Assembly: GCF_025960875.1 (NCBI RefSeq)
Contig: NZ_JAODLR010000009.1
Location: 62,001-126,000, forward strand
Direction: 5' to 3'
DNA length: 64,000 nucleotides
From: Crystallibacter permensis
GTDB taxonomy: Bacteria; Actinomycetota; Actinomycetes; Actinomycetales; Micrococcaceae
Positions 37,736 to 59,163 of this stretch are shown piece after piece (within the stretch, counting starts at the first letter, position 1; the number at the start of each line of letters is the position of its first letter). The position numbers and the translations under genes were made by a program. The notes under the pieces were generated by a model that worked only from the letters and a program-made list of their open reading frames with translations, searched no databases and was not told the origin of the DNA.

Positions 37736-38086
37736 TCAGTTCCAGAGGGTGGCGAGGGCTATGTTGAGCAGGGCCAGACCGCCTACTGCATGTGCCAGGC
37801 CGGTTGAGATGGGTTCATTGGCCTTGTACTTGCGGCGGCCAATGAAGGCCAGCACACCGACAACGAGGGCGATGACGAGCTTGATGCCGAGCTTGACGTA
37901 GTTGGCATCCATGTCCAGAGCCGGGATAAGTCCCATCATGATGACGCCGGTGATCAGTTGGAGCATGGCGCCGTCGAACTGGCGCGGGTGGACGGTCGGC
38001 TTCTTCATGTTGCCGATCCAAATGCCCACGATCATGGCCGCACCTACGATGTGCAGAAAGACAAAAATGCTGTAAAGGATCTCCAT
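37736..38086 (-). CDS. Small four-helix membrane protein, unknown function
   Basis: A 116-residue integral membrane protein with about four helices: ILYSIFVFLHIVGAAMIVGIWI, MLQLITGVIMMGLIPALDM, LGIKLVIALVVGVLAFIG and AHAVGGLALLNIALATLW. The HIVGAAMIVGIW helix has a histidine that in similar families can bind haem, but I cannot assign it. On the minus strand TAGGCT (38094-38099) lies seven bases upstream of the ATG. It is flanked by terminators on both sides, so it is probably transcribed alone. Confidence 0.7.
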   Translation of the reverse strand: MEILYSIFVFLHIVGAAMIVGIWIGNMKKPTVHPRQFDGAMLQLITGVIMMGLIPALDMDANYVKLGIKLVIALVVGVLAFIGRRKYKANEPISTGLAHAVGGLALLNIALATLWN

Positions 38087-38099: not shown

Positions 38100-38201
38100 T
38101 CGGCTCTGAGCAGGGATTACGTCGCGCCACGGAGCAGCAGCAGTCAAATTTTCTACGAACTGTAGTAAGAACCCATCAGAACCACGGCCGTTAAGCCGAC
38201 T

Positions 38202-51558: not shown

Positions 51559-52515
51559 CTATCCCGCGGCCAGCCCCGGGGCCAGGAGCAGGACGGTCGG
51601 CACGGCCAGCAGCAAGGCCGAGCAGCCCAGCACCAGTGCTTGCGCTGGCTTGCCCAGGGGCGGCGACGGCGACAGCAGCCGGTGCAGCCGGTGGGCAGTA
51701 CTCAGGGCCTCAGACTCTTCCGGGGTCAGCAACTCTTTGGCCGGAGCGCCGACGCCGGATGGCCGTTCGCCGCTAGCCACCACGGCCACGGCGCGGATCA
51801 AGGTTTCCCTGTTCGCGGTTCTCAGTGCCCCGTCATCCGCAAGCATCTCGATCAGTTCGTTGACGGCCCGCTGCGCGAGCTGCGATGTCGGCAGCCAGGG
51901 AAGCGCGGAGCGCCAGGCAGCAAAGGCCCACAGCAGTAGGTCGTGGCGCTGGTTCAGATGGGCGCGCTCATGGTTTAGAACCGCCTCGAGTTCTTCGGGC
52001 CGAAGCAGCTCCAGCAGACCTTCCGAGAGCACTGTAACGGAGCCAGCTCCACCGGGGAGGCAATACGCCACCGGTGCGGGATGGCTGATCACCAGGGTCT
52101 TGGGAGAGTTTTTGACCGGCGAACTGAGCAGGTTCAGCAGGTCACGGTGCTTGTTGCGTTGCTTGCGGATCCGGTAATACGTCAGCAGCAGCGTAAAGAC
52201 CAGATGTACGCCCAGCAGCAGGGCAGCGCTGAGCGCGAAGACATGGATCAGGTCCAGGCCCGGTGCCGGCGCGTAACTGACCAGCAGCCCTGCCAGCCCT
52301 TGAAGCCCCGCCAGGAGGTTCTCGCCCAGCGGTTCCAGCCCCCACGTCAGCATGGCGCCGATCATGGAGAGCCCGCCGGCCAGCGCGATGGCTTGCCACA
52401 GCACCAAGGCCGTGACGGGTGCTCGTGCGGTCCACTTTGCCCGGGCGAGCAAAACCGGCACCGGCCACGCCAAAATGACCGCCATGGCGGCCAGGAGGTA
52501 CGAGGCCCAGAACAC
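51559..52515 (-). CDS. M56-family (BlaR1-like) membrane metallopeptidase
   Basis: A 318-residue membrane protease with N-terminal helices, a cytosolic zinc-protease domain with HExxH at His182-Glu183-His186 (LNHERAHLNQRH) and a final membrane helix (ALVLGCSALLLAVPTVLLL). Unlike BlaR1 it has no C-terminal penicillin-binding sensor domain, so its trigger is unknown. By analogy it would cleave the BlaI repressor encoded six bases upstream in the same operon. M. tuberculosis has a similar pair, Rv1845c-Rv1846c. Confidence 0.85.
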   Translation of the reverse strand: MFWASYLLAAMAVILAWPVPVLLARAKWTARAPVTALVLWQAIALAGGLSMIGAMLTWGLEPLGENLLAGLQGLAGLLVSYAPAPGLDLIHVFALSAALLLGVHLVFTLLLTYYRIRKQRNKHRDLLNLLSSPVKNSPKTLVISHPAPVAYCLPGGAGSVTVLSEGLLELLRPEELEAVLNHERAHLNQRHDLLLWAFAAWRSALPWLPTSQLAQRAVNELIEMLADDGALRTANRETLIRAVAVVASGERPSGVGAPAKELLTPEESEALSTAHRLHRLLSPSPPLGKPAQALVLGCSALLLAVPTVLLLAPGLAAG

Positions 52516-52521
52516 TAAGGG

Positions 52522-52908
52522 CTACGCAGTCAGCAGCTTACGCAGGGTTTCGGCTTCCTGTTCGGAAACGCTGCCGATGAATTTAGCGAGAACGGCCTCG
52601 CGGTCCGGCGCCGATCCAAGCACCTCGTTCATCAACTCCACCGTGTGTTCCTCACGGCTGGTCACTGCCCGGTAGCGGTGCGGACGGATGTCCCGTTCGC
52701 GCTGTACCAGGCCCTTCTTTTCCAACCGGGACAACACTGTGAGCACAGTCGTTACTGCCAGTTCCTTGCCATCCGGGCTTGAGGCCGTTTTCCGTGCCAG
52801 ACGGTCGCGCAGGGCGTTTGCGGTAAGAGCGATCTCCGCTGGATCTTCCGAGTCGGACTGCCACAGCAGGTCCATAACCGCGCGTTCCAGCTCCCCAAGA
52901 GTTGCCAT
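52522..52908 (-). CDS. blaI: BlaI/MecI-family transcriptional repressor
   Basis: A 128-residue winged-helix repressor. It begins MATLGELERAVMDLLWQSD, followed by recognition-helix and wing segments (LAVTTVLTVLSRLEKKGLVQRERDIRPHRYRAV) and a C-terminal dimerisation region ending VSEQEAETLRKLLTA. ATG 52908 has GAAGGA upstream; a reading from 52929 is less supported. Transcribed with the M56 gene and divergent from cydA. Palindromic GTAGAA/TTCTAC sites fill the shared promoter region, so it probably represses itself and cydABDC. Confidence 0.9.
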   Translation of the reverse strand: MATLGELERAVMDLLWQSDSEDPAEIALTANALRDRLARKTASSPDGKELAVTTVLTVLSRLEKKGLVQRERDIRPHRYRAVTSREEHTVELMNEVLGSAPDREAVLAKFIGSVSEQEAETLRKLLTA

Positions 52909-52994
52909 GTATTTCCTTCGTCCTACCAAACTAGCTGCTCGACCCGGCGGCGCACGCTGCCGGGATGTGGTCTCACTCTCTAATTTACCGCGTT

Positions 52995-53047
52995 TGTAGA
53001 AATTGTTCTACACTACGTAGAAACTTGTACTTCTACGGCTTGTAGAA
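52995..53047. promoter_or_regulatory. BlaI-type operator array between blaI and cydA
   Basis: Five alternating half-sites occur in 52 bases: GTAGAA at 52996, TTCTAC at 53006, GTAGAA at 53017, TTCTAC at 53031 and GTAGAA at 53042. The first pair is a perfect dyad, TGTAGAA-n4-TTCTACA (52995-53012). The last half-site overlaps the -35 region of the candidate cydA promoter, whose -10 is TAGCCT (53067-53072). The first dyad lies near the -35 region of blaI. Confidence 0.7.
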
Positions 53048-53102
53048 ATGTGTCCCGCCGACGCTTTAGCCTGTGCCGGCTCGTCCCGAAGGGGTATTTA
53101 TC

Positions 53103-54689
53103 GTGGAAGCCCTGGAAATCGCCCGCTGGCAATTCGGCGTCACCACCGTCTACCACTTCCTGATGGTGCCGTTGACCATCGGTCTCGGCCTGACGGTGGC
53201 CGTAATGCAGACGGCCTGGTACCGGACCGGCAAGGACCAGTACCTGCGGATGACCAAGTTCTGGGGCAAACTTTTCCTGATCAACTTTATTATGGGCGTG
53301 GCCACCGGCCTGGTGCAGGAATTCCAGTTCGGCATGGCGTGGAGTGAATACAGCCGCTTTGTCGGAGATGTCTTCGGTGCGCCGCTGGCGCTGGAATCGC
53401 TGCTGGCCTTCTTCGTCGAGTCGATCTTCCTGGGCCTGTGGATCTTCGGCTGGGGCCGGCTCCCTAAGGCCATTCACCTGCTGAGCATCTGGGCTGCATC
53501 GCTGGCTACCATGGGCTCGGCCTACTTCATCCTCGCGGCCAACTCCTGGATGCAGCACCCGGTCGGCGTCGAAATGATCGATGGCCGCCCGGTCATGGTC
53601 GATATCTGGGCCGTACTCACTAACAACACGCTGCTGGTGGCTTACCCGCACACCCTTTTCGGAGCGTTCTCCGTGGCCGGCGGCTTCCTGCTCGGCATCA
53701 GCTGGTACCACCTGTGGAAGCGCCGCCGTGACGAGATCGATACCGTGGGCCCCGACGGCAAGGTTATTGTTGGCTCCAAGCCTGCCATCGGCCGCGACGC
53801 CGCGGACCATAAAGTATGGCTGCGCTCCCTGCGGATCGGCGCCGTCGTCGCTATGGTTTCGTTTGGCGGGGTCGCCCTGACCGGTGATCTGCAGTCCAAG
53901 CTCATGTTCGAACAGCAGCCAATGAAGATGGCTGCGGCCGAGGCGGCGTGCCATGACGGGACGGGATTTTCGATCCTCTCCGTCGGTGATCTTGGTTCCA
54001 ATGACTGTGATGATCTGGTTGCGGTTGTCGAACTGCCGGGGTTGCTGTCCTTCCTGGCCAACGGCGATTTCACCACCGAAATCCGCGGGATCAATTCGCT
54101 CCTGCCCGAGTACCAGGAGAAATTCGGCACACACCTGCCGGACAACCCGATCTACGGCGAGCGCGCCGGAACTGAAATCGATTATGTCCCTGTCATGGAG
54201 GTTACCTACTGGGGTTTCCGGATGATGATTACCTTCGGCATGCTGGCCGCTGGCGCCGCCCTGATTGCGCTGTGGATTGTCCGCAAGGGGACCGTGCCGC
54301 AGTCCAAGTGGCTGATGCGCCTGGCTGTGTTCGGGATCCTGGCCCCGTTCGGCGCCAACTCGGCCGGCTGGATCTTCACCGAAATGGGCCGCCAGCCCTT
54401 CGTCGTTGCACCCAACCCTGATCCGAACGGGATCGACAACGTCTTCATGTTCACGGCTGCCGCTGTCTCGCCGGGCGTCTCACTGGCCGAGCTGATCTTT
54501 TCGCTGGCGGCTTTCGCCTTGGTGTACGGCGTGCTGCTCGTGGTGGAAGTGAAATTGCTCTTCGCCTACTGCCGCGGCGGGGTGCCATCTGCCATGCCCG
54601 AACTGCTGCACGAGGACAAAGATGACGACGGCGACGAGGGCCCCGGCAGGCGGAAGGACGACGACGATGTGCTCGCCTTTGCTTACTGA
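53103..54689 (+). CDS. cydA: Cytochrome bd ubiquinol/menaquinol oxidase subunit I
   Basis: Quinol-oxidising subunit of the high-affinity bd oxidase. The haem b595 ligand region RWQFGVTTVYHFL has His18, and GAPLALESLLAFFVESIFLGLWIFGW follows. WIFTEMGRQPFVV carries the haem b558 methionine segment. I start at GTG 53103 with AAGGGG upstream; an in-frame reading from 53073 is less likely. It has 528 residues with a charged C-terminal tail (EDKDDDGDEGPGRRKDDDD). First gene of cydA-cydB-cydDC, divergent from blaI. Confidence 0.95.
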   Translation: MEALEIARWQFGVTTVYHFLMVPLTIGLGLTVAVMQTAWYRTGKDQYLRMTKFWGKLFLINFIMGVATGLVQEFQFGMAWSEYSRFVGDVFGAPLALESLLAFFVESIFLGLWIFGWGRLPKAIHLLSIWAASLATMGSAYFILAANSWMQHPVGVEMIDGRPVMVDIWAVLTNNTLLVAYPHTLFGAFSVAGGFLLGISWYHLWKRRRDEIDTVGPDGKVIVGSKPAIGRDAADHKVWLRSLRIGAVVAMVSFGGVALTGDLQSKLMFEQQPMKMAAAEAACHDGTGFSILSVGDLGSNDCDDLVAVVELPGLLSFLANGDFTTEIRGINSLLPEYQEKFGTHLPDNPIYGERAGTEIDYVPVMEVTYWGFRMMITFGMLAAGAALIALWIVRKGTVPQSKWLMRLAVFGILAPFGANSAGWIFTEMGRQPFVVAPNPDPNGIDNVFMFTAAAVSPGVSLAELIFSLAAFALVYGVLLVVEVKLLFAYCRGGVPSAMPELLHEDKDDDGDEGPGRRKDDDDVLAFAY

Positions 54690-54736: not shown

Positions 54737-55756
54737 ATGGAAACCCTGCCTACTCTCTGGTTCATCATCATTGCCTTCTTCTGGACCGGCTACCTGTTCC
54801 TGGAGGGCTTTGATCTGGGCGTCGGCATGCTCATGCGCGGTTTTGCCCGCAACAACACCGAGCGCCGGGTGCTGCTGAATACCGTGGGACCGGTCTGGGA
54901 CGGTAACGAGGTCTGGCTGGTCACGGCAGGTGCCGCCACCTTCGCCGCTTTCCCGCACTGGTACGCTTCCCTGTTCTCGGCCCTGTATCTGCCGCTGGTC
55001 TTCGTGTTGCTCGCCTTGATCTTCCGTGCGGTTGCCTTCGAGTACCGCGGCAAGATGGACTCCGACCGCTGGCGCAACGCCTGGGACTGGGCGATTGTCC
55101 TTGGCTCCCTCGTGGCCGCCTTCGGCGTCGGAGCCATGCTGGCGCTGACCACCACAGGGCTGCCCCTGAACGAAAACGGGGACCGGGTGGGCGGCCCCTT
55201 TGCCTGGTTCAACGGCTATGCGGTCCTCGGCGGTCTGGCAGTTGTCTTCTTCTGCATTGTGCACGCGGCAGCGTTCCTGGCGCTGAAGACCGACGGCGAC
55301 ATCCGGACCCGTGCCCGCAAGCTGTTGCTTCGCTGGCTGCCTGTCGCCCTGCTGCCGCTGGCGCTGTGGGCCGTCGCGGTAGTGGTGGCCGGCGGCAAAT
55401 CCGTCACCTATGTGACCCTGCTGCTGGCCGTCCTCGGCGCCGCCTTCGCGTGGATGATGGCCCGGCGGGAACGGGACGGCTGGAGTTTCGGGGGCCTGGG
55501 TGTCTTCCTGCTGGCGGGCACCGCGACCATTTTCACCGCGGTGTTCCCGAACGTGCTGCCGTCCACCATCGACTCCGCCTACAACCTGACCGTCACCTCT
55601 GCATCCTCGTCGGATTACACGTTGGGAGTGATGAGCGTTATTGCCGCCTTCGGGATTCCGGCAGTACTGGTGTACCAGGGCTACACCTACTGGGTGTTCC
55701 GCAAGCGCGTCAGTGCCTCGTCGATCCCGGCTGCCCACGCCGTCGTCCCGCAGTGA
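54737..55756 (+). CDS. cydB: Cytochrome bd oxidase subunit II
   Basis: The second membrane subunit of the bd oxidase, 339 residues, about eight or nine hydrophobic segments. The N-terminal LWFIIIAFFWTGYLFLEGFDLGVGML and GPVWDGNEVWLVTAGAATFAAFP are family signatures. It starts 47 bases after cydA, and its TGA overlaps the cydDC GTG by four bases (GTGA), so the downstream exporter is coupled to it. Confidence 0.95.
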   Translation: METLPTLWFIIIAFFWTGYLFLEGFDLGVGMLMRGFARNNTERRVLLNTVGPVWDGNEVWLVTAGAATFAAFPHWYASLFSALYLPLVFVLLALIFRAVAFEYRGKMDSDRWRNAWDWAIVLGSLVAAFGVGAMLALTTTGLPLNENGDRVGGPFAWFNGYAVLGGLAVVFFCIVHAAAFLALKTDGDIRTRARKLLLRWLPVALLPLALWAVAVVVAGGKSVTYVTLLLAVLGAAFAWMMARRERDGWSFGGLGVFLLAGTATIFTAVFPNVLPSTIDSAYNLTVTSASSSDYTLGVMSVIAAFGIPAVLVYQGYTYWVFRKRVSASSIPAAHAVVPQ

Positions 55757-58700
55757 AGCCTCTGCTTCCAGTCAGCGCCACGAGCAGGCGGGCGCTCTAT
55801 CTGCTGGGCCTGCTGGCCGCGTGCAAGGCGCTCGGTCTCATTTTGCTGGCCGACGCCGTTGCCAGCGGAATTGCCGGATTGGCCGCCGGCAGCCTCGACT
55901 GGCAGCACATTATGGTGCTGGGAGCGGCCGGCGCTGTGCTGCGTTCGCTGGCCGTCTGGGCTCAGGAAACGGTGGCCCAACGCGCCGCTGCCGGCGTCAA
56001 GCAGGAGCTGCGCGCGGACCTGACCCGGCGGATTATCGACGACGGCGGGGCAAGCGCTGCGGCCGGCGCTGGGAACAGTACTGAAGCCGGCGCCGCAGAC
56101 AGTAGCGCGGGCGTTGGCGCCGGGAGCGGCGCCCTGACCGTCCTGGTGACGCGCGGCCTGGATTCGCTGGATAACTACTACAGCAAGTACCTTCCCGCTT
56201 TGGTGACCTGCGCCGTCGTGCCTTTGCTGGTTGCTCTGCGCATTCTTGGTGCGGACTGGGTCAGTGCGCTGGTTGTAGTGCTGACCATCCCGCTGGTGCC
56301 GATTTTCATGATTCTGATCGGCCAGCACACCGAGGACAAGGCCCAGGAAGCCGCCGCGGCGTTGGACCGGCTCTCGGACCACCTGCTGGAACTGGCCCGC
56401 GGGCTGCCGGTACTCGTTGGGCTCGGCCGTGCCGCTGCCCAGACGCGCGCGCTGAGCGACGTTGCCGCCGAGTACCGCAGCCGCACCCTGGCCACCCTGC
56501 GCGTCGCGTTCCTGTCTTCGCTGGCGCTGGAACTGATTGCCACCATTTCGGTGGCCGTCGTCGCGGTGTTCATCGGCGTGCGGTTGGTACACGGCGAGAT
56601 GCCGCTCGAAGCCGGCCTGCTCGCCCTGATTCTGGCTCCCGAGTGCTACCAGCCGCTGCGCGATCTGGGCAGTGCGCACCATTCCAGCGAGGACGGACTC
56701 GAAGCGCTCAAACGCAGCAATGCGGTGCTCGGCTCGCCTGCGGGCCGGCCGCTGGTGTCCGCCGATGCGCAAGCGGGTTCGGGGGACATTTCCGTGTCGA
56801 ACTTGAGCGTCCGCTACCCGGGGCGTGCGGAGGCGGTGGTCGATGGGCTGGACTTCGCCGTTCCTGCCGGCGGAATCGCGGCCCTGGCCGGCCCCAGCGG
56901 CTGCGGCAAAACCTCTGTCCTGGAGGTGCTGGCCGGTGTGCGGCGGGACGGGGCGGGTGCGGCGGTTGCCGGCTCCGTGGCAGGAGTCGGCGGGGACCAG
57001 ATTGCCTGGATTCCGCAGCACCCGGTGCCGGCGGAGCTGACTGTGGCGGACGAGATCGCACTGTATGCCGGCCTGCCTGCCTCTCCCGCGGGGCGACAGG
57101 CTGCCGAGCGTGCGCTGTCACAGGTCAACGGGACCGCTCTGATCGACGCGGCCACCGGTGACCTCAGCCCGGGCGAACTGCGGCGGGTCGCCGTGGCCCG
57201 CGCCCTGGCCCGGGTAGACAACGTGCCCGGAGTGCGGTTGCTGCTGGCAGACGAACCGACCGCCCACGTCGACGCGACCAGTGCCCGTGCCATCGAAGAC
57301 GCCCTGAAGCGGCTGCGCGGACGCATCACCATCGTGCTGGTGGCACACGATCCCGCCACCGCAAGACTTGCGGATCAGTTGATCGAGATCGGTGCCGGCG
57401 CCAGTCATGCCTGGGGAGCCACACATCCGGCTCCGGCTTCGGCAGCCGGAGCGGAAGCCGAAGCAACTGTCGCCGTCCGGGGCGCCGTCGATGAGGGCGA
57501 GCCTGCACAGCGGCCGTCCCTGTGGCGGAACCTGGCAATGCTGCGCCCCTGGAGTAGGCCCTTTGTTGCCGCGCTGCTCTTCGGGCTGGGCGCTACGCTG
57601 TTCGCGGTCTCGCTGAGCGGCCTGTCCGGCTGGCTCATCGTCTACGCCAGCGAGCAGCCGCCGATCCTGTATCTGATGACCTCCATAGTCGGGGTGCGGT
57701 TCTTCGGCCTGGGCCGTTCCGTGCTGCGCTATCACGAACGCCTGCGCCTGCATGATGCCGTCTTCCAAAGTACGGACCGGCTACGGACCCGCCTGTGGAA
57801 CGGGCTGCTGCAGCGTCCGGCCGGCTGGCGGAAACTTGCCCGGGGCGGGGGAGCTCTGGAGCGGCTGATCGGCGACGTCGATGAATTGCGCGACATCGCC
57901 CCGCGCGCAGTGTTCGCGCCGCTGGTGGGAGTCTTGACCGCCGTGGCGTCGTGCGTGGCTACCGCGCTGCTGCTGCCGTCCGGCCTGGTGTGGCAGATAC
58001 TGCTCGCCGTAGTCGGGATTCTTGTGGCGCCAACCCTGACCCGACTGGCCGACCGTTCTGCGCAGGCCGCGACGGTAGGCCTCAAGGGGGAGTCGCTGAA
58101 CGCTTTTGCACGCCTGCTTGGTGCGGCCGCGGATCTGCGGGCCAACGCCGCGGAGGCATCGTTGCTGAAGCGGACCCAGGACCTGGATTCCAGAACGACG
58201 GCGGCGCTGCAGCATAGCGCGTGGGCGCAGGGACTCGGCCAGTGCCTGACGGTCCTGGCTTGTTCGCTCACCGCCCTGATGATGATCACCCAGTCTGCTG
58301 GAGCAGTGCCCGGAGCTGCCGCCGTCGTGATCTTGATGCAGTTGGCGCTGGTCGAGCCCTACACGGCAGTCAATACCGCCGTCCAGCAATGGGGCGCCTG
58401 GCGCGGGCTGGGGGAGCGGGTGCTGCCGGAACTGGGCACCGAGGACCTACCGGCCGGCAGCACCGAGGATTCCCAGGTGCGCGGGGAGTTCGCCTCGCTA
58501 AGCCTTGAGCAGATTGCGTACGCCTATCCCGGGCAGTCCCGTCCCGTTTTCAGCGGACTGGACCTCGAGCTGCGGCCGGGGCAGTGGCTGGCGGTGACCG
58601 GCCCATCCGGCAGCGGGAAGTCGACCCTGCTGGGCGTTCTGCTCGGGTTCCTTCAGCCGGAGCAGGGCCGGTATCTGGTGAACGGCCAGCCGGTGGAGTC

Positions 58701-59163
58701 CGCTACACCGGGCGCCGGCAGAGGCATTGCCTGGACGCCGCAGGAGGCCCATTTGTTCAACTCGACCTTGCGCGCGAACCTGATGCTGGCGCGCAGCAAA
58801 GCCGATCCTCCATCGGAAGCCGAGCTGCTCAAGGCGATTGACGACGTCGGCCTTGGTAGCTTCGTGGCAGACCTGCCGGACGGACTTGATACCCGTATTG
58901 GGCCGAACGGGCATTTCCTCTCCGGTGGTCAGCGCCAACGCGTCGCGGTGGCCCGTGCGGTGCTGACCCACGCGGAGGTGCTGCTGCTGGACGAGCCGAC
59001 GGCGCATCTGGACCGTGAATCTGCGGTAGCGCTGCTGGCCGACCTCCGCACGGCGCTTGCGGGCAAGGCGGTAGTCATGGTCACCCACCGGCCTTCTGAG
59101 GCGGAGTTATGCGAGCTGCGGCTGGAACTGGGTTCCCCGGCGCCGCTGCCTGCTTTAGCCTAA
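55753..59163 (+). CDS. cydDC: Fused CydD-CydC ABC transporter
   Basis: A single 1136-residue polypeptide combining CydD and CydC, the ABC exporter of reduced thiols and haem-related cargo needed for bd oxidase assembly. The first half has its membrane domain, then Walker A GPSGCGKTS near residue 382 and the signature LSPGELRRVAVARAL. The second half repeats this with GPSGSGKST near residue 952 and LSGGQRQRVAVARAV, with Walker B LLLDEPTAHLD. A low-complexity Ala/Gly insert (around residues 98-122) interrupts the CydD membrane domain. Its last codons contain the -10 of the next gene. Confidence 0.93.
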   Translation: MKPLLPVSATSRRALYLLGLLAACKALGLILLADAVASGIAGLAAGSLDWQHIMVLGAAGAVLRSLAVWAQETVAQRAAAGVKQELRADLTRRIIDDGGASAAAGAGNSTEAGAADSSAGVGAGSGALTVLVTRGLDSLDNYYSKYLPALVTCAVVPLLVALRILGADWVSALVVVLTIPLVPIFMILIGQHTEDKAQEAAAALDRLSDHLLELARGLPVLVGLGRAAAQTRALSDVAAEYRSRTLATLRVAFLSSLALELIATISVAVVAVFIGVRLVHGEMPLEAGLLALILAPECYQPLRDLGSAHHSSEDGLEALKRSNAVLGSPAGRPLVSADAQAGSGDISVSNLSVRYPGRAEAVVDGLDFAVPAGGIAALAGPSGCGKTSVLEVLAGVRRDGAGAAVAGSVAGVGGDQIAWIPQHPVPAELTVADEIALYAGLPASPAGRQAAERALSQVNGTALIDAATGDLSPGELRRVAVARALARVDNVPGVRLLLADEPTAHVDATSARAIEDALKRLRGRITIVLVAHDPATARLADQLIEIGAGASHAWGATHPAPASAAGAEAEATVAVRGAVDEGEPAQRPSLWRNLAMLRPWSRPFVAALLFGLGATLFAVSLSGLSGWLIVYASEQPPILYLMTSIVGVRFFGLGRSVLRYHERLRLHDAVFQSTDRLRTRLWNGLLQRPAGWRKLARGGGALERLIGDVDELRDIAPRAVFAPLVGVLTAVASCVATALLLPSGLVWQILLAVVGILVAPTLTRLADRSAQAATVGLKGESLNAFARLLGAAADLRANAAEASLLKRTQDLDSRTTAALQHSAWAQGLGQCLTVLACSLTALMMITQSAGAVPGAAAVVILMQLALVEPYTAVNTAVQQWGAWRGLGERVLPELGTEDLPAGSTEDSQVRGEFASLSLEQIAYAYPGQSRPVFSGLDLELRPGQWLAVTGPSGSGKSTLLGVLLGFLQPEQGRYLVNGQPVESATPGAGRGIAWTPQEAHLFNSTLRANLMLARSKADPPSEAELLKAIDDVGLGSFVADLPDGLDTRIGPNGHFLSGGQRQRVAVARAVLTHAEVLLLDEPTAHLDRESAVALLADLRTALAGKAVVMVTHRPSEAELCELRLELGSPAPLPALA
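59156..59161 (+). promoter_or_regulatory. -10 element of a leaderless GNAT-gene promoter
   Basis: TAGCCT, six bases (AATGGC), then ATG 59168. The hexamer lies in the final codons of cydDC, so the GNAT gene may be transcribed separately despite the four-base gap. Confidence 0.55.

Follow-up and report, generated by a model that had tools for sequence, protein, structure and literature searches.

A BlaI-M56 gene pair as the probable switch of a respiratory-chain and heme regulon in Arthrobacter-like actinobacteria, through the operator TTCTAC-N5-GTAGAA

Genome comparison indicates that the BlaI-type repressor and the adjoining M56-type membrane protease of an Arthrobacter-like organism most probably form a switch of a respiratory-chain and heme regulon, operating through the dyad TTCTAC-N5-GTAGAA. 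The 64-kb stretch of DNA that was analysed (the window) corresponds to G000:C9:62001-126000 of a 4.9-Mb draft genome in 66 contigs. Within it, the blaI and M56/M48-type protease genes lie on the minus strand, flanked by a gyrB/parE-type gene and by the cyd operon, with the protease gene beginning six bases past the end of blaI, and on the plus strand the order is cydA, cydB and a fused cydDC (Table 1). The gap of 194 bp between blaI (ATG at 52908) and cydA (GTG at 53103) holds a whole array of operator half-sites. From the comparisons described below, binding of BlaI to these sites and control of respiration by BlaI appear strongly supported.

In the proposed mechanism, a BlaI dimer would occupy TTCTAC-N5-GTAGAA dyads and block transcription, thereby holding down the blaI-M56 operon, cydABDC and a scattered regulon. 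The latter would comprise a heme part (hemQ, with hemA/hemE in relatives), a cytochrome c maturation part (resA-ccdA-resB), genes for heme A and aa3/bc1 biogenesis (ctaA, ctaG and ctaE, and in relatives ctaB, ctaC, qcrC and SURF1), genes for copper delivery (DUF1775, and in relatives CopC and PCuAC), and flavohemoglobin. Impaired respiration, or missing heme or copper, would give rise to a signal at the membrane that activates M56, which would then cut BlaI and release the whole gene set together. Such a switch fits a regulon that unites the two oxidase branches with their cofactors and with Hmp. Repression as the sign of control is suggested by the position of the dyads and by the protein family, and proteolysis by M56, together with the nature of the signal, by homology.

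Table 1. Features of the blaI-cyd locus and of a second operator site in the window (positions count from the first letter of the window).
Feature	Position	Strand	Basis
blaI, BlaI/MecI-type winged-helix repressor, 128 aa	52522..52908	-	PF03965; closest solved chain 2g9w
M56/M48-type membrane zinc metalloprotease, 318 aa, BlaR1-like without sensor domain	51559..52515	-	motifs, fold match
putative blaI -10, TAAATT on minus strand	52982..52987	-	inferred from conserved distance to first dyad
lone GTAGAA half-site, lineage-specific, probably outside conserved operator	52996..53001	+	2/51 loci
operator dyad A, TTCTAC-ACTAC-GTAGAA, 17 bp	53006..53022	.	at least one exact dyad at 51/51 blaI loci
operator dyad B, TTCTAC-GGCTT-GTAGAA, 17 bp	53031..53047	.	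two or three exact dyads at 45/46 cydA loci
cydA, cytochrome bd oxidase subunit I	53103..54689	+	PF01654, E 4.6e-148
cydB, cytochrome bd oxidase subunit II	54737..55756	+	TIGR00203 above cut-off
cydDC, CydD-CydC exporter fused in one frame, start codon provisional	55783..59163	+	TIGR02857 and TIGR02868 above cut-off
second BlaI-type operator, TTCTAC-GAACT-GTAGTA, one half of TACTAC form	38151..38167	.	G000:C9:100151-100167
small membrane protein gene, 116 aa, cluster c20	37736..38086	-	recurring BlaI-site target; no Pfam family above cut-off

GTAGAA and TTCTAC half-sites alternate in orientation at 52996, 53006, 53017, 53031 and 53042, just as a preliminary description of the sequence had it. 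That description recognized one perfect dyad among them; there are in fact two, at 53006-53022 and 53031-53047, arranged in tandem 25 bp apart, and the cydA start follows the centre of dyad B by about 64 bp. On both strands of the window GTAGAA occurs 21 times, against 7.7 +/- 2.3 in 100 shuffles (0 of 100 reached 21), and 5 of the 21 are packed into 52 bp. As for the proposal of five half-operators, four of them do form the tandem dyads, but the fifth, at 52996, is found at the same distance in only 2 of 51 blaI loci (the window's own and L009, with GCAGAA in L008). An array of five half-operators was rejected on this account, and with the tandem dyad as the operator unit the fifth half-site drops out.

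Of the 51 blaI loci compared, 30, the window's among them, came from a genome search, 17 belong to named genomes and four to family f6; five of the 17 (L086-L089 and L091) are duplicates, being contigs of L008, L010, L012, L011 and L018. M56 accompanies blaI in all 51, and in 46, the five duplicates among them, cydA adjoins blaI divergently. An exact dyad lies between blaI-M56 and cydA in every one of these 46 loci, with two dyads in 32, three in 13 and one in a single locus (L017). Whether relatives sharing the gene order also keep the half-sites had been set beforehand as a check on the preliminary description, which thus came through: 46 of 46 loci have one exact dyad or more, and 45 of 46 have two or three. 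Where cydA is not next to blaI (five loci), blaI is still preceded by at least one exact dyad. Measured between the two dyads nearest cydA, the step comes to 23-26 bp in 38 of 45 loci and to 17 bp in the four loci of f6, whose dyads abut. In 29 of the 51 loci an AATTTA/AATCTA element is found exactly 24 bp from the first dyad, towards blaI, and one more locus has it at 40 bp, when 4% of shuffles had one anywhere in 60 bp. The element looks like the -10 of blaI, and at this distance the blaI promoter and the first dyad probably overlap. A sigma-70 consensus scan found no promoter; that the array spans the divergent promoters of blaI and cydA, as had been suggested, is likely, with the -10-like element near blaI in its favour and the blank scan against it. 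A separate observation concerns L017, in which the second dyad, opposite cydA, looks interrupted, with intact TTCTAC and GTAGAA halves 20 bp apart and not 5.

Both proteins of the pair were then compared with characterized families and structures. BlaI of the window passes PF03965 (71.5 bits, cut-off 22.6), its nearest named relative is BlaI of Arthrobacter sp. SF27 (98% identical), and its closest solved chains are 2g9w, which we take to be the Mycobacterium BlaI Rv1846c, and then MecI. MecI has an Asn-Phe pair, presumably its cleavage site, and Phe110 of the window BlaI aligns with the Phe of that pair and is invariant in 32 of 32 aligned BlaI proteins; in these 32 it is preceded by Arg, Lys or Ala, never by the staphylococcal Asn. 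A cut at Asn101-Phe102 has been reported for staphylococcal BlaI (PMC9834060). The invariant Phe110 could also be structural.

For the protease, the HExxH and E-x3-D motifs named for BlaR1 (PMC9834060) are invariant in 34 of 34 aligned M56 proteins. The protein misses the cut-off of Pfam Peptidase_M56 (27.4 bits, cut-off 31) and clears the one for the sister family M48 (PF01435; 41.5 bits, cut-off 20.3); by phmmer it found no relative among solved structures on its own, and as a profile weak M48-type matches only. Its AlphaFold2 model (pLDDT 87) ends in a C-terminal helix, and has its best fold match in BlaR1 residues 3-293, with an rmsd of 5.9 A over 218 residues and a Z of 10.8, a size that can be unspecific for helical models. 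ZMPSTE24 (Z 9.8) and BepA (Z 9.6) follow close behind, so that the match is to the membrane gluzincin group and not to BlaR1 alone, and the best Foldseek E-value, to BlaR1, was 1.9e-3, with none below 0.001. A penicillin-binding sensor domain is absent from the 318-aa protein, and the match to BlaR1 stops at residue 293 of 585; model and match limits together bear out the earlier statement that this M56 protein lacks a beta-lactam sensor domain. Its presence with blaI in 51 of 51 loci and the invariant active site favour a protease function.

The same two facts weigh on an unlikely but still credible alternative, in which a signal such as heme, redox state or a metabolite acts on BlaI directly and M56 only tunes BlaI turnover; a protease so constantly kept, with its active site intact, argues against so minor a part. 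In favour of direct sensing, many of the targets are heme enzymes, and relatives of the CopY type sense metal directly (PMC7253601). CopY/TcrY proteins belong to the same superfamily, and their operators, too, usually number two, mostly 24-39 bp apart (PMC7253601). Unlike them, the window BlaI falls far under the cut-off of TIGR02698 (CopY/TcrY; 26 bits, cut-off 121.95), and it has no Cys-X-Cys tail, since its sequence contains no cysteine, which speaks against a direct metal sensor of that kind. A gene set much like that of BlaI-M56 is served in Corynebacterium glutamicum by HrrSA, which to our knowledge is not homologous to BlaI-M56. HrrSA answers heme, in keeping with direct sensing, and its targets include heme synthesis, ctaE-qcrCAB, ctaA, ctaB, ctaC, ctaD and cydAB (PMC7337898); it differs from BlaI-M56 in being a heme-driven two-component system and an activator of oxidase genes (PMC7337898). 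Corynebacterium sigma C serves a similar set as well, and the stimulus proposed for it is defective electron transfer in the aa3 oxidase (PMC7337898).

The targets of the BlaI-M56 switch were sought from the operator. In the window's own genome, six exact dyads were found, against none for the control, which was the pattern read backwards: two at cyd, and the others before hemQ, a flavohemoglobin gene that adjoins an Rrf2 regulator, a pyridoxamine-oxidase-like gene and a VTT/DUF456 pair. Sites with one mismatch number 14. Among them are those at the cytochrome c maturation genes resA-ccdA-resB, at an ABC pair with ctaA after it, at a CopD-CtaG protein, in the trpD/ctaE gap, at a DUF1775/DUF4232 operon led by a membrane protein, and at the gene at 37736-38086; others precede unrelated or unassigned genes (LysR, UbiB, sucC and others), one is located within a gene and one lacks a nearby gene start. 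A search allowing two mismatches was dropped as too noisy, as the reversed control (187) exceeded the pattern (91) in this genome. Exact matches were used throughout thereafter, with one-mismatch sites counted in the own genome only. No atp gene was among the scanned neighbours of the own-genome sites.

For a wider sample, the exact dyads not at blaI were taken from ten relatives, which represent ten other genera, minus G012:C53 (near a contig end); together with four sites of the own genome they gave 66 exact dyads at 64 places in 11 genomes. The dyads lie mostly 10-200 bp upstream of start codons, and 2 of the 66 fall inside a called gene. At 41 of the 64 places a terminal-oxidase, heme, cytochrome c, copper-delivery, NO-detoxification or sdh-like gene comes next, one respiratory-type gene of the two being sufficient where a site lies between divergent genes. 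By gene, these are hemQ (9), resA (5, and 2 via a neighbouring PGM gene), hmp (6), the ctaA operon (4), CopC-type genes (4), ctaG (2), ctaC (2), cydA (2), and qcrC, ctaB, SURF1 and hemA/hemE (1 each); for L122, L127 and L146 the ctaA label denotes the ABC pair c14-c13 only, which in L045 and L153 is followed by a ctaA-type gene (c33). The 41st place is L157 (G012), with genes about 311 bp downstream of an exact dyad that by eye are presumably sdhC, sdhD and sdhA. The remaining places are those of a small membrane protein, c6 (7), of the pyridoxamine-oxidase-like gene (5) and of c20 (3), plus isolated cases, of which one falls within a gene; with 23 of 64 places before other or unassigned genes, the regulon is not purely respiratory. 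Control of bd oxidase had been predicted from the array, and dyads do stand at cydA; they are not specific to it, however, and span a respiratory and heme regulon. In one genome (G145), two cydA copies stand away from blaI with tandem dyads at each, and blaI retains one dyad. As an observation apart, the dyad at L157 suggests that complex II may join the regulon in some species.

These targets bear on the classical role of such pairs, by which BlaI-M56 would answer cell-wall damage or beta-lactams, with cyd caught up by its position. The homology to BlaI/BlaR1 invites this explanation, as does the report that overexpression of mycobacterial BlaI lowers ftsQ and raises beta-lactam sensitivity (PMC12565901). 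It is nevertheless improbable: no beta-lactamase or penicillin-binding protein was called among the scanned proteins beside the own-genome sites, dyads accompany cydA also when it is away from blaI (in G145 and in family f35), and the M56 protein is without the sensor domain. The pair does resemble BlaI-BlaR1 and MecI-MecR1 of Staphylococcus and Bacillus in that repressor and membrane gluzincin genes lie side by side, but it differs from them in the missing penicillin sensor, in respiratory targets as opposed to beta-lactamase, and in the absence of the scissile Asn. The operator differs also, TTCTAC-N5-GTAGAA here as against the TACA/TGTA of BlaI/MecI (PMC7253601).

Association of the dyad with BlaI was evaluated in 149 genomes of the home family, in which a match of at least 75 bits counted as BlaI-positive. 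In all, 688 exact dyads were found against 62 for the reversed control. The 127 BlaI-positive genomes hold 682 (control 58), with one genome having none; the 18 BlaI-negative genomes hold 2 (control 3), with 16 having none; and four genomes with a weak BlaI match only have one exact dyad each. The p value of this co-occurrence, 4e-12, overstates independence, because the BlaI-negative genomes fall in three genera; the co-occurrence therefore amounts to few independent events. In two further families the dyad is likewise found with BlaI, in 17 of 19 genomes with the protein and 0 of 4 without it (f6), and in 12 of 13 and 0 of 9, respectively (f19). A spacing of N5 occurs in 132 of the 149 home-family genomes and N6-N10, pooled, in 34, and several of the N6-N10 matches contain TACTAC-N5-GTAGAA, in which the spacer is again N5 and one half deviates. 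The N5 spacing is specific. The spacer ends favour a purine and a pyrimidine, giving TTCTAC-R-NNN-Y-GTAGAA.

Beyond the home family, the exact TTCTAC form was found in 56 of 297 genomes of the order, nearly all of families f1, f6 and f19, with a few matches in f15 and single ones in f8 and f20, so that the operator is not universal. In a class-level scan with TWCTAC-N5-GTAGWA, family f36 exceeds its reversed control, and f22, f37, f35 and f45, each taken family-wide, were not above theirs. Genomes of f6, f19, f36, f35 and f45 were chosen for having pattern matches, and among their sites the pairing recurs with cyd, hemE, CopC-CtaG, hmp or resA, in part in a TWCTAC/GTAGWA form. Four f6 genomes have 20 places: four at parE-M56-blaI opposite cydAB, three at a flavohemoglobin-like gene, four at a membrane protein near a PCuAC gene and four at a universal stress protein (Pfam assignments having been made on one each of the last two), four at genes of no assigned function and one without a called gene. 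The five f19 places away from blaI are at cydDC (2), hmp, resA-ccdA-resB and a c20 homologue, the last site lying at the end of the upstream gene. Family f36, which is outside the order, has 12 places (7 of G457, 3 of G505 and 2 of G635): one at blaI-M56 opposite a distant cydA (PF01654), two at hemE, three at CopC-CtaG, one at an Rrf2 gene and five others. In f45, blaI opposite cydA has TACTAC-N5-GTAGTA in four genomes, and two more places are at genes of no assigned function. The 16 places in six f35 genomes, from which two G525 sites were left out, put TWCTAC-N5-GTAGWA before cydA in four genomes, before the c20 homologue in four, before a Rieske-type protein in three (Pfam on one) and before resA in one, with four others; in a sixth locus, L239, it lies between blaI-M56 and a distant cydA. 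Comparison of this kind, in the home family and outside it, demonstrates at the level of sequence that the operator is conserved, that it is tied to BlaI, and which genes are its targets.

The genome also carries a second BlaI-type gene (G000:C16:20865-21197; L055, 2551-3962), 40% identical and with an M48-type protease gene of its own. It adjoins a gene for a CopC-CopD protein, and is possibly a separate copper-linked switch. A search for TTCTAC-N5-GTAGAA at L055 found none with up to two mismatches.

A second protein of the same type could in principle account for the dyads, as could some other regulator that co-varies with BlaI; Rrf2-type regulators adjoin two of the scanned sites, and the dyad-BlaI link itself comes from comparison. 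Such a substitution is very improbable, given that the dyad remains at blaI even where cydA is elsewhere (5 of 5), that it is nearly always gone where blaI is gone, and that L055 is without it. Chance palindromes in a GC-rich genome, a thought prompted by the two-mismatch search in which the control outnumbered the pattern, can be practically dismissed in view of the exact counts in the own genome and in the 149 family genomes, the recurrence at the same genes, and the conservation of sites and targets across families.

BlaI as a kind of repressor is already known, including mycobacterial BlaI on a gene of the atp operon. Mycobacterium BlaI (Rv1846c) presumably has an M56 partner, and its full regulon in M. 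tuberculosis was reportedly described by Sala in 2009. M. tuberculosis BlaI binds the promoter of Rv1303, which is co-transcribed with atp genes, and when overexpressed in M. smegmatis it lowers the Rv1303 homologue (PMC12565901); a review names BlaI as a regulator of the atp operon (PMC5874750). The present system differs from Mycobacterium BlaI as treated in PMC12565901, in the passages of which neither a cyd/heme/cta/hmp regulon nor this operator appears. A link between BlaI and Rv1456c was not found in the reviews searched, and the open-access literature matches listed (titles and abstract starts) included neither a BlaI respiratory regulon in Micrococcaceae nor this operator.

A broader reading, on which the balance is even, is that the ancestral role of actinobacterial BlaI-M56 concerned the integrity of the respiratory chain and not resistance, with the sensorless protease reading a defect in electron transport or in heme or copper insertion. 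If so, oxidases, heme synthesis, cytochrome c maturation, copper delivery and NO detoxification would be released jointly, and beta-lactamase control would be a later branch that added a sensor or a target. The switch proposed here would make a family annotated as "penicillinase repressor" a candidate for the master control of aerobic respiration across several actinobacterial families, with an operator simple enough to predict targets genome by genome. The BlaI-M56 switch would provide a candidate regulator for cytochrome bd in Arthrobacter-like bacteria, a functional setting for the uncharacterised membrane proteins c6 and c20, and a setting in which to place the reported connection of mycobacterial BlaI with an ATP synthase operon, and it suggests a possible purpose for sensorless M56 proteases beside BlaI.

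Several recurring genes and one odd operator array deserve separate mention. The c20 membrane protein (111-117 aa), whose gene in the window lies at the second operator site, recurs as a target in three families (L108, L123, L141, L234, L286, L291, L294 and L296); an exact dyad precedes its homologues in three further genera (L108, L123, L141), and a TACTAC-type dyad does so in four f35 genomes. The small membrane protein c6, with no Pfam family above cut-off, has a dyad upstream in eight genera, with one mismatch in the own genome (L050, L103, L109, L117, L120, L134, L143 and L151), and at the c6 loci looked at a gene near by looks MATE-like by eye. A pyridoxamine-5-phosphate-oxidase-like protein recurs as a target as well (L040, with PF12900, and L107, L132, L138 and L158). 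Finally, upstream of blaI in L246 of family f45 (1322-1411), seven GTAGTA in the same orientation follow one another at exact 14-bp steps, beside one full dyad.
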